Virus record (IMG/VR): IMGVR_UViG_3300042392_000559
Span: 1 to 30,899 of that record
Length of the DNA: 30,899 nt
DNA from: a virus
Strand: one strand, 5' to 3'
Shown here: in pieces, positions 3,679 to 21,869 of the stretch
How positions within the stretch are numbered: position 1 is the first letter of the stretch
How the letters are laid out: each line of letters opens with the position of its first letter
The notes under the pieces: model-generated
The model's database searches: none
What the model saw: only the letters and a program-made list of their open reading frames with translations
Told to the model about the DNA's origin: nothing
Program-made: the position numbers and the translations under genes

Positions 3679-4767
3679 ATGAATGTGTTATCATTATTTG
3701 ATGGAATGTCCTGTGGACAACAAGCATTGCAACGTGCAGGATTTAAGGTAGAAAATTATTTTGCATCTGAAATTGACAAATATGCAATTCAGGTGACAAT
3801 GGCAAATTTTCCAAATACAATTCAATTAGGTTCAGTTGTGAATGTGGATGGATATTCATTGCCAAAAATTGATATTCTGATTGGTGGATCACCTTGTCAA
3901 TCATTTTCATTTGCAGGTAAACGCAAAGGAATGGCAACAAAGGATGAACAAGAAATTTTGACATTAGAGCATTATTTGCAGCTAAAATCAGAGGGATTTG
4001 AATTTGAAGGGCAATCGTATTTATTTTGGGAATATATGCGTTTATTAAACGAAACAAAACCAAAATATTTTTTGCTTGAAAATGTAATGATGGGTGAAAA
4101 ATGGGAAAAGGTTTTGAGCAAAGCAATTGGGGTGAAACCAATTATGATAAATTCAGCATTGTTATCAGCACAAAATCGCCAGCGTTTATATTGGACAAAT
4201 ATTGGATTAAAGCCATCGGGGTTGTTTGGTGATTTAGAAACCACAATACAGCAACCAAAGGACAAAGGTATTTTATTGAAAGATGTGTTGGAATCAGATG
4301 TCAATCAAAAATATTTTATTAATGTTGAAAATAATGACCGATTAAAACAGACATTATTTGGCAATAGATTAGACAGATTGTGTCTAATTGATTTATATAA
4401 TCAAACATTACATTATGACAAATCAATTACATTGAGTACACGTGTCAGCGCAAGCAACAACACACATATTCATAATCCAATAGTTCATAATATGATGCCA
4501 CGTTCATCAAAAAGCGGAAAGGGTGGATCCGGCCATCTGAGTCGCTCAGATGGCCGGACATATTGTTTGGACACAGGATTTACAAATGCAATTGAATTAT
4601 ATGGTAAAATTAGGAAATTGACACCCATTGAATGCGAAAGATTGCAAACAGTAGCAGATAATTACACCAATCACGTTTCTGATTCACAGCGATACAAAAT
4701 GCTTGGAAATGGATGGACTGTTGATGTAATAGTTCATATTTTAAATTATATAAACCTAAACCAATAA
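3679..4767 (+). CDS. DNA (cytosine-5) methyltransferase
   Basis: Transfers a methyl group from S-adenosylmethionine to C5 of cytosine in a specific DNA site, probably shielding phage DNA from host restriction. The motifs are in canonical order: motif I LSLFDGMSCG (residues 4-13), motif IV GGSPCQSFSFAG (69-80) with catalytic Cys73, motif VI ENV (134-136), motif VIII QNRQRLYWTN (165-174), a variable target-recognition region about 180-300, then motif IX/X RKLTPIECERLQ and YKMLGNGWTVDVI. At 362 aa it is a typical solitary phage enzyme, and no restriction endonuclease partner is seen. Codons around 284-294 form a perfect GC-rich hairpin. Target specificity cannot be read from the sequence. Confidence 0.95.
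   Translation: MNVLSLFDGMSCGQQALQRAGFKVENYFASEIDKYAIQVTMANFPNTIQLGSVVNVDGYSLPKIDILIGGSPCQSFSFAGKRKGMATKDEQEILTLEHYLQLKSEGFEFEGQSYLFWEYMRLLNETKPKYFLLENVMMGEKWEKVLSKAIGVKPIMINSALLSAQNRQRLYWTNIGLKPSGLFGDLETTIQQPKDKGILLKDVLESDVNQKYFINVENNDRLKQTLFGNRLDRLCLIDLYNQTLHYDKSITLSTRVSASNNTHIHNPIVHNMMPRSSKSGKGGSGHLSRSDGRTYCLDTGFTNAIELYGKIRKLTPIECERLQTVADNYTNHVSDSQRYKMLGNGWTVDVIVHILNYINLNQ
4528..4558 (+). repeat. perfect 14-bp inverted repeat with 3-base loop inside the cytosine methyltransferase gene
   Basis: The arms TCCGGCCATCTGAG and CTCAGATGGCCGGA are exact reverse complements separated by TCG. The element is GC-rich in an AT-rich gene and uses codons that are otherwise uncommon here (CTG, CGC, CGG, TCC). 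It stays in frame, encoding the SGHLSRSDGRT segment, which resembles a conserved patch of related methyltransferases. As RNA it would be a very stable hairpin. Function unknown. Confidence 0.9.
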
Positions 4768-17852: not shown

Positions 17853-20800
17853 ATGGCATCATTAACCGGTCAATTAGTAGCGGAAACATACAAAGCATTG
17901 TTAAAAACCATTGACAATGACATCCTAACAGCAAGCGAAAAGCAAATCACAGATGGATTAGGTGGCGGATCAAATGTTTTTATTGATTCACAGGGGTTTT
18001 TAAGAGCAAACAAATTTAAGGTCACTAATGGTTTAGCAACGCAGTTTTTAAAGGCGGATGGATCATTGGATGCAAATACTTATTTGACCGGCATCACAAG
18101 TTCACAAATCATCACGGCATTAGGGTACACACCTGTTCCGACAACACGTACATTGACAATCAATGGCACAACTTATGATTTGAGTGCAAATAGATCGTGG
18201 ACGGTCGCAGGAACGGCAGCCGTGTGGGGTAATATCACAGGCACATTGTCCAATCAAACAGATTTACAAACGGCATTAAATGCCAAATACAATAATCCAA
18301 CCGGTACAATTTCACAATACATTCGTGGCGATGGTTCATTGGCTACATTCCCAACATTGCCGGGAGGTTTGCCAACAGGTGGAACAGCCGGCCAAATTTT
18401 GGCCAAAATTGATGCAACCGATTACAATACACATTGGATTGATAATTTTGCCACACAAACCAAAAATGAGGTCAAATTAGGCGCAACATTAGCTAAAGGC
18501 ACAGCGGTTTATGTTTCTGGATCAACCGGTGGCAGCGGAACAAATATGATTGTGATGGCCGCATCAAATGCAAGTGAGGCATTAAGTTCAAAAACGTTTG
18601 GTTTACTTGAAACAGGTGGTGTGACTAATGATTTGGTAAAATGTGTGACATTCGGATTATTAGCCGGATTGGATACATCAACAGCACAGGCAGGTGATCC
18701 GGTTTGGTTGGGTGTTAATGGTGCATTATTGTTTGGTTTAGCCAATAAACCCGTTGCACCTGCTAATATGGTTTATATTGGTGTTGTGACACGTGTACAA
18801 TCAAACAATGGTGAAATATTTGTAAACGTTCAAAATGGATTTGAAATTGAGGAATTACACGATGTGTTGATTCAATCAAAAGCCAATAATGAGGGTTTAT
18901 TTTACGAATCATCCACAGGATTGTGGAAAAATAAAAGCATTGCAACGGTGTTAGGTTACACACCACAGGCGCAGTTAGATGGGACAGGATTTGTAAAAGC
19001 ATCAGGCACAACGATTTCATACGACAATTCAACGTATTTAACCACGACAGATGCAGCAAGTACATATCAAAGATTGGACAAACTTGCATCCTCTTTATTT
19101 GCGAGTGCTACCAATTACCCAAACAACAATGCTGTAATTGCAGGTTTAGCATTGAAGGCAGACGCAGCAAACCCAATATTTACCGGATCGATGAATATTG
19201 TTGGTTTAGAATCAAGAATTAATTTTTATGATGAAAATAGTCTTAGAAAATATTTTATCGGGTATAATTCAGGCCAATTATCTATTTACCAAGATGCAGG
19301 ATCAGCAACAAGATTTTACATAAATTCATCGGGGGAAACATTCATACCGGGAACACTTACCGTTGGATCAGTAATTAAGGATGGAGGCACAGCCACACAA
19401 TTTTTAAAAGCAGATGGATCAATTGATTCAAGCACCTATGTTACATCTACGGCATTGGCTGATTATTTATTAATCACAACAGCGGCATCAACATATCAGC
19501 GATTAGATAGGATTGCATCGTCATTATTTGCAAGCGCAACAAATTATCCAAATAACAACGCAGTCATTGCCGGATTGGCTTTAAAAGCGGATGCCGCAAA
19601 TCCTGTATTTACAGGATCAATGAACATTCAAGGGTTAGAATCAAGAATTAATTTTTACGATGAAAACAATTTAAGAAAGTTTTTTATTGGTTATAGTTCG
19701 GGACAATTGTCAATTTTTCAAGATGCCGGATCAGCAACAAGATTCCAAATAAATTCAAGCGGAAACATAACAACAGGTGTTAACAATACAATAACATCTT
19801 GGGGTTTTATCAAATCTGGTGGCACATCAAGTCAATTTTTGATGGCTGATGGATCGGTTTCAACCGGGCCTGCAAATGGAATTACAGGAACATTGACATC
19901 AGGATTTATCCCAAAGGCAACAGGTGCAAATATATTAGGTAATAGTATTATTTCTGAGGTTAGTTCAAAAATCAGTATTACATCATCATCTGCTTATGGT
20001 TGGATATATTCAAACGATGTTAATCATAGTATAATTTTGCGTGCAGATAGAAATGGAACGGTTTTAAATTACACTAATTATTATCAATATGGAGGTACAT
20101 TGGCTGATGGGTTAGGTCATAAATTTTGGACAGGAGGCGATTTATCAATTCAATCATTAAGATTTCAAATTGCAGATAATGGTGTTTATGTTGCTAATAA
20201 TTTATTTGTAGGTACAACCACAGATTCAGGGTACAAATTTGATGTAAACGGAACAGGAAGATTTAGTGGGTATTTATATGCTGATGGTTTAAGAATTGCA
20301 GGTGGAGATACAGGGAATACAATTTATGCAGGTAGCCGAAATATGGGAATCACGGCTGAATCAGGATATAATATTTCAATTGGTAGAGTAAGTAATACAA
20401 CCGTAGGATTAAATATTAGAACAGATACAGGTAATGTTTCAATAGGTACATCTAATACATCAAGTAGATTTAATATTAAAGGAGATAGCAGTAATTCACA
20501 AATTGAATTTAATAACTTTTCAACAGGTCAAAATTACATTCTTTCTTATGATAGAGTTGCAAATGCATATCGAGATTTTATAATTACAACAAATGCAAAT
20601 AATAATGGATTATCAGTTACTACATCGGGTAATATTGGAATTGGAACAATTACTCCTGCTAATCAATTATCAGGTACAAAAGGATTGTCAATTTTTGATT
20701 CAACAAATGCGGCATTAGGATTATCAAATGGAACTAATCATTGGTTGAATTATTTAGGAGGTTCACAATACAGATTTTGGAATAATACATCCAACGAGGT

Positions 20801-21869
20801 GATGGTTTTACATCTTAATGGAAATGTAGTAATTGGAAATGGAACAATTGATGCAGGCGGATATGGTAAATTAGCAGTTGGCGGAGGCATTAGAATTTTA
20901 GATGATAAAAATGCTAAATTAGAAATTGGCAGATATTCAAGTGGGGCATCAAATTCATATATTAAATTAGGAGCAAATTCAAATTCATTAAGAATTACAA
21001 ACAATACTGATACAATTGATATATTTACTTTAACAAATGGCGGTTTAGTTGGCATAAATACATCTTCACCATTTAATTTTGGTTCGGGTAGTGGAATGTT
21101 AGATGTTCGATCGCAAAATACAGGATCTGTTTCAGGGGTATTTGTAAGCAATTCAGATGCTACTGCAAGACTTACGATGTATATTAATCCAAATGCAACA
21201 GCAACATTTGGCACATCTACAAGTCATATTTTGCAAATTGTAACTCAAGATGTCGAAAAAATGAGAATTACAATTGGCGGAAATATACTAATTGCAACAA
21301 CCACCGATAATGGTTCTAAATTTCAAGTAAATGGAACATCTTCATTTTTAGGCACAACGGCATTACACGATAATCAATTACGTGTTAGGGCAATGAGTGA
21401 TCCAAATCACGCAATTGTTTATAATGGTACAATTAATGGCCCATTATCATACGGATATTTTGGTGCAGGTTTAGGATATACGGAAGGCGGTTCAGCAAAT
21501 ATTACATTGATGACATATCGTGGAAATGCAATGGTTGGTTATACATCGGATCAAGGATACAGATTAGCAGTTAATGGATCAGTTTTGGCAACAGGATTTT
21601 TTGAATCATCTGATTTAGAATTAAAAAACATTTCAAAAAAATACGATTCAAATGATTTTGGTGCAATTGAATTTAATTGGCTTGATGAAAGAGATGCAAA
21701 AAATCATTGGGGATATATTGCACAGGATGTTCAGAAATTTTTACCTGATGCAGTTGTCAAAAATAAAGATGGATTTTTAGCCGTAGATTATAATCAAGCA
21801 CATACATATAAGATTGCGCAATTAGAAAAACGTGTGGCTGAATTAGAGGCACAATTAAATTTGAATTAA
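17853..21869 (+). CDS. tail fibre with C-terminal S74 intramolecular chaperone domain
   Basis: A 1338-aa receptor-binding fibre, the longest gene here. The N-terminus ([20 protein letters not shown]) probably attaches to the tail. The shaft is beta-rich with fibre-type repeats (three copies of QFL-ADGS, two of LGYTP) and a near-identical ~97-residue duplication (positions 19041-19335 and 19475-19765). The end (about 1249-1338) is a peptidase-S74 chaperone: ESSDLELKN, with the Ser and Lys expected for self-cleavage, then [37 protein letters not shown] and a terminal coiled coil. S74 domains trimerise the fibre and then cut themselves off. The second half seems richer in A/T than the first, suggesting domain exchange. 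It sits before the tail-tube genes, an unusual location. Confidence 0.93.
19041..19765 (+). repeat. internal duplication in tail fibre: two ~97-residue copies
   Basis: Copies at about 19041-19335 and 19475-19765 encode almost the same protein: ...[62 protein letters not shown]. Their DNA differs at many third positions; for example the STYQRLD segments read agt aca tat caa aga ttg gac and tca aca tat cag cga tta gat. The protein is conserved and the DNA is not. Confidence 0.85.

Follow-up and report, generated by a model that had tools for sequence, protein, structure and literature searches.

The window analyzed here, the whole 30,899-nt stretch of viral DNA, carries on its plus strand a gene for a C5-cytosine DNA methyltransferase (Table 1). 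The protein contains the PF00145 domain, the GGSPCQ motif IV, and C-terminal motifs IX and X, and it aligns with M.HhaI at both ends. Its target-recognition half includes a conserved module motif whose peptide, GG(T/S)GHL(S/T)RxDGKTYCLDTG, is found in dozens of homologues at the same length as in the window, whose only departures from them are T to S and K to R. We found no relatives with the exact GHLxRxDGRTYC motif in viral contigs and no match to the module peptide in cultured phages. Elsewhere in the window, tandem 15-nt units at positions 2606 to 2665 encode NPxxG-type pentapeptides in an HTH_36 protein, and a 294-nt direct duplication, 77% identical (19035 to 19328 and 19464 to 19757), lies within a 1,338-aa ORF (17853 to 21869) that is possibly a tail or receptor-binding protein.

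Table 1. Coordinates of the methyltransferase gene and of the features inside it (positions of the window)
Feature	Position	Strand	Remarks
C5-cytosine DNA methyltransferase gene, 362 aa	3679..4767	+	PF00145, E=6.7e-44
Conserved target-recognition module motif GSGHLSRSDGRTYCLD	4525..4572	+	90 distinct homologous motif DNAs; hairpin site in other phages too
Left arm TCCGGCCATCTGAG	4528..4541	+	Codons S-G-H-L-S; perfect complement of 4545-4558
Triloop TCG	4542..4544	+	
Right arm CTCAGATGGCCGGA	4545..4558	+	Codons S-D-G-R-T; CGG in place of the family's AAR (K to R)

The motif holds a perfect hairpin on the plus strand at positions 4528 to 4558, TCCGGCCATCTGAG-TCG-CTCAGATGGCCGGA, with 14 pairs and a 3-base loop, and the original prediction was exact in its coordinates, pairs, and triloop. 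The 31 bases are in frame and code for SGHLSRSDGRT. The hairpin is 65% GC versus 33% for the methyltransferase gene, and it is 5 bp longer than any other perfect hairpin of the 30.9-kb window, the second longest having 9 pairs. RNA folding of the isolated hairpin gave −26.5 kcal/mol, and its 106-nt context folded with a z score of −3.4, with none of 200 shuffles equally stable. The codons that build it are rare in this phage (CTG, 2%; CGG, 7%; TCC, 8%; CGC, 9%), which agrees with the prediction of locally rare codons in an AT-rich gene. That prediction had also placed the hairpin in frame in the variable half of the gene. The frame is correct and the target-recognition half is variable overall, but the hairpin stretch itself is the conserved module motif.

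Known kinds of element did not account for the hairpin. No Rfam match was found in the window, and no promoter was found. There was one weak terminator-like match, 210 nt before the stop codon, and we rejected a terminator because such matches were about as numerous as in shuffles (1 versus 0.9 expected), the T-tract is poor, and the match lies inside the gene. The target-site hairpins of DGRs were weighed as an identity and set aside because of the loop type that they have; among the ten window proteins scanned, none was a reverse transcriptase.

We compared 90 distinct homologous motif DNAs, 83 of which lacked GC-rich stems of at least 7 bp. The other seven, one from the window and six from AT-rich metagenomic phages, had perfect GC-rich stems of 8 to 14 bp. 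The state was binary across the 90 motifs, perfect or absent with no intermediates, and the run of inner-stem pairs at the window register was 0 to 1 in 84 motifs and at least 8 in 6. The seventh carrier, L103, has a perfect hairpin of 9 bp whose register is shifted, GTACGGGTC-ATCT-GACCCGTAC. Over a 168-nt stretch of the 90 genes, GC-rich stems of at least 7 bp were confined to the motif, with none in the flanks; codon resampling expects 0.05 such stems in the motif, versus 7 observed. The original prediction had looked to homologous genes for conservation of the hairpin and had taken identical residues without a hairpin, together with a lack of further copies, to count against it. Most homologues do lack the hairpin, but the prediction did not foresee the six other phages, whose perfect hairpins are compensated or shifted. 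By these sequence comparisons, one motif of phage methyltransferases is a hotspot of perfect coding hairpins. Coding palindromes are known as a kind; their recurrence in phage methyltransferases appears to be undescribed in the literature searched.

Searching viral contigs for the outer-arm pattern GGNCATCTG-N7-CAGATGG returned 71 places, 5 of which fell in the methyltransferase motif (L085, L095, L099, L196, and L210; contigs or loci of 29 to 34% GC). The inner bases were perfectly complementary in all five motif places versus none of the 66 unrelated viral places, and they read TCCAGGA once, ACCAGGT twice, and TCCTGGA twice, with the L196 stem reaching 10 pairs. The pairing classes are AGT-CGC-TCA (window), TCC-(A/T)GG-ACA (L085, L196, and L210), and ACC-AGG-TCA (L095 and L099), so that every class preserving Ser/Thr-Arg-Ser/Thr is populated. 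Among the CTN-leucine copies that an exhaustive degenerate scan yielded, every CTG copy formed a hairpin and CTT or CTA copies never did; L210 and the window lie outside that scan, yet both obey the CTG rule. L095 and L099 belong to related phages (∼88% identical across long segments), and L085, L196, and L210 form one pairing class; the seven carriers are therefore not all independent and represent four sequence solutions in two registers. Several other features were seen among the relatives. The minus-strand methyltransferase ORF of L359 (L085) has an intein-like insert (Pfam Intein_splicing, Hint) exactly at the motif IV catalytic Cys (GGSP/C...HN/CQSFSF), and 11-bp perfect AT-rich coding hairpins lie outside the motif in the L046/L290 methyltransferase (L046, 3790 to 3818) and in L032 (3301 to 3327). 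Two related carrier phages also differ by a module-sized indel of ∼140 nt, ∼46 nt from the hairpin (L360, 9024 to 9162, versus L361, ∼9193).

A chance coincidence of codons in a palindrome-prone peptide is strongly disfavored by these counts. The peptide does permit a hairpin, and codon-resampled versions of it reached 10 pairs in 2 of 50,000 cases. However, for this peptide and the codon usage of the phage, 14 pairs have an exact probability of 1.5 × 10−8, and there is a single coding solution apart from two free wobble bases. The excess of carriers over codon resampling and the difference between motif and control places in the scan argue against coincidence as well. We consider this explanation very improbable, and the claim that the hairpin lies far beyond chance holds.

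The suggestion that the hairpin is a remnant of a small mobile palindrome did not stand. A short GC-rich hairpin within AT-rich DNA speaks for an inserted REP- or IS200/IS605-like palindrome or an assembly artifact. However, the window sequence adds no residues relative to homologues, the reading frame and conserved residues are intact on both arms, and a search of the window record found no second copy. Further copies, which the prediction had suggested looking for in host and phage genomes, did not appear either: a search of other viral contigs gave no copy of the exact core, its close DNA relatives in phages or plasmids were chance matches only, and none of 395 Bacteroidia-class genomes held a hairpin with the phage centers, while the outer arms were present in 7. 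An artifact is further opposed by the presence of hairpins in several separately assembled contigs. Because homologous codons were replaced without an indel and there are no dispersed copies, we rejected an REP or other palindromic mobile element, and we regard insertion or artifact as hardly credible.

The typical motif DNA, CATTTAAGCAGATCAGATGG, is already a quasipalindrome (CATTT...AGATG). Two residues are nearly invariant across the 90 motif DNAs, and apart from R to K, changes at them occurred in carriers only: R to W (L196 and L210), K to I (L210), and K to R (window). Relative to its nearest relative, L311, the window core differs at 48% of bases and the flanks differ at 18%, and this core divergence exceeds the maximum of 39% over 112 comparable non-carrier pairs. 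The change on the window arms is thus clustered and multibase. Both arms carry derived, rare codons, as judged against distant relatives only, and since rare codons lie on both arms, the window hairpin would need at least two template-switch events plus point mutations. The loop reads CAG in L085 versus CTG in L196 and L210, where the R to W change equals a loop inversion, although one A to T substitution would produce it too. The starred branches of the gene tree force at least two changes, which is a weak statement because the tree is poorly resolved and its L210 row comes from an unrelated catalytic half.

We propose, with about an even chance of being right, that the hairpin is a coding palindrome which template switching during replication, or quasipalindrome conversion, has both created and kept perfect. 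The peptide G-H-L-x-x-x-D-G-K would force an imperfect palindrome between the CAT of His and the AGATGG of x-Asp-Gly; a polymerase stalled there could briefly copy the opposite arm and so leave complementary arms through clustered substitutions tolerated by the protein. The multibase change of AAR to CGG could be explained by copying of the left arm, and inversion of the loop from CAG to CTG by the same process may have produced R to W in L196 and L210. The window hairpin is a perfect inverted repeat in coding sequence with conserved residues on both arms and no indel, and the all-or-none pattern, the clustered substitutions, the possible loop inversion, and the occurrence of all protein-compatible pairing classes fit template-switch conversion. 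From this pattern we infer both the mutational mechanism and a persistence that needs no function. Copying of an arm does not by itself account for the GC enrichment within AT-rich genes. Among 752 non-methyltransferase AT-rich phage genes, there were 2 perfect hairpins of at least 9 bp versus 10.2 ± 3.4 in synonymous codon shuffles, which suggests that strong hairpins are avoided in these genes. Because long hairpins outside the methyltransferase are scarcer than in shuffles, there is no general excess of hairpins from template switching.

Several described systems resemble the proposed process. Nematomorpha mitochondrial genes hold perfect, binary coding palindromes attributed to repeat conversion (PMC6649704), and they share with the phage hairpins perfect repeats, conserved protein on both arms, a perfect-or-absent state, and scattered gains and losses. 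Unlike those palindromes, which reach 284 bp in many genes of an animal organelle, the phage hairpins are 8 to 14 bp, vary in sequence, and occupy one motif of one gene family. In Saccharomyces cerevisiae genes, template switching homogenizes arms and inverts spacers (PMC8604942). There, as proposed here, short coding repeats are perfected by multibase, amino-acid-changing substitutions, and spacers flip, as the loops of L196 and L210 may have done; the yeast events were traced on strain trees, whereas ours are reconstructed from distant relatives only. Quasipalindrome mutagenesis, in which imperfect inverted repeats become perfect by template switching, is established in bacteria and phage T4 with Escherichia coli thyA and lacZ reporters and T4 rIIB (PMC7202029). 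Those were laboratory measurements, whereas the phage case is natural, recurrent, and located at a motif fixed by protein constraint. Template switching can also yield perfect stems and apparent compensatory changes without stepwise selection (PMC8794818), a point made for RNA genes, whereas the window hairpin lies in a protein-coding phage gene.

The main rival to template switching is a selected mRNA or DNA structure, in which a strong hairpin at a fixed position in the methyltransferase message, or a palindrome to which the enzyme or a regulator binds, would adjust translation, transcript lifetime, or expression levels in some phages. The place is constant while the inner pairs covary (AU/UA and CG/GC, with both sides changed), and the shifted hairpin of L103 preserves the place and not the sequence. 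The cores of L085 and L210 are identical at 25 of 26 bases although 16 of 24 flanking synonymous codons differ, and this near-identical core with diverged flanks also fits selection. The scarcity of hairpins in other genes of these phages is a further argument for selection. Five carriers have a palindromic CCWGG center, but pairing together with the Ser/Thr-Arg codons is enough to yield it. Against selection, the great majority of homologues lack such a stem, and folding of non-carriers is no stronger than that of their codon-resampled versions and, at the motif, if anything slightly weaker (z of about +0.4). Loop, center, and register are not common to the carriers, and the searches for Rfam families, promoters, and terminators gave only the weak match described above. 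No structure common to all homologues was found, the pair count at the register being 4.49 versus a codon null of 4.33 ± 0.17. The covariation pair count is partly circular because the carriers were found by their outer pairs, so that the independent pairs are the inner ones only (columns 19-25 and 20-24). With inner-pair covariation confined to a few carriers and the stem absent from most motifs, the hairpin does not behave as a conserved functional RNA element. Expression control and service as a binding site, both raised originally, are possible candidate roles, and we judge selected structure overall to be a real but rather unlikely explanation. Its strongest form, a position-fixed, sequence-free element that arose anew, with different pairings, on at least three or four occasions, controls methyltransferase expression or module recombination, and acts strongly enough to alter otherwise invariant residues, is in our view unlikely.

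Instead, a palindromic tract of rare origin could have passed from one target-recognition module to another through homologous recombination or gene conversion, with shuffled modules carrying the hairpin along. In L210 (L363), the module and a closely similar hairpin core are joined to a catalytic half only 27% identical to that of the window, which shows that modules are shuffled between methyltransferase types. A module-sized indel next to the hairpin distinguishes L095 from L099, which come from related phages, and four carriers come from closely numbered samples. However, recombination leaves the different center and longer stem of the window unexplained, as it does the compensated class of L095 and L099 and the register of L103, and the flanks of carriers are mostly closest to those of non-carriers. 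Module recombination may spread hairpins among phages, but as the explanation for all of them we consider it distinctly doubtful.

Compensated base pairs are usually taken as proof of functional RNA. The methyltransferase motif is a compact example from nature: constraint on the protein creates a near-palindrome, which replication may repeatedly perfect, altering conserved residues as it does so. The motif provides a testable system for deciding whether coding hairpins originate by mutation or by selection, and it also bears on the evolution of the target-recognition modules of phage methyltransferases.
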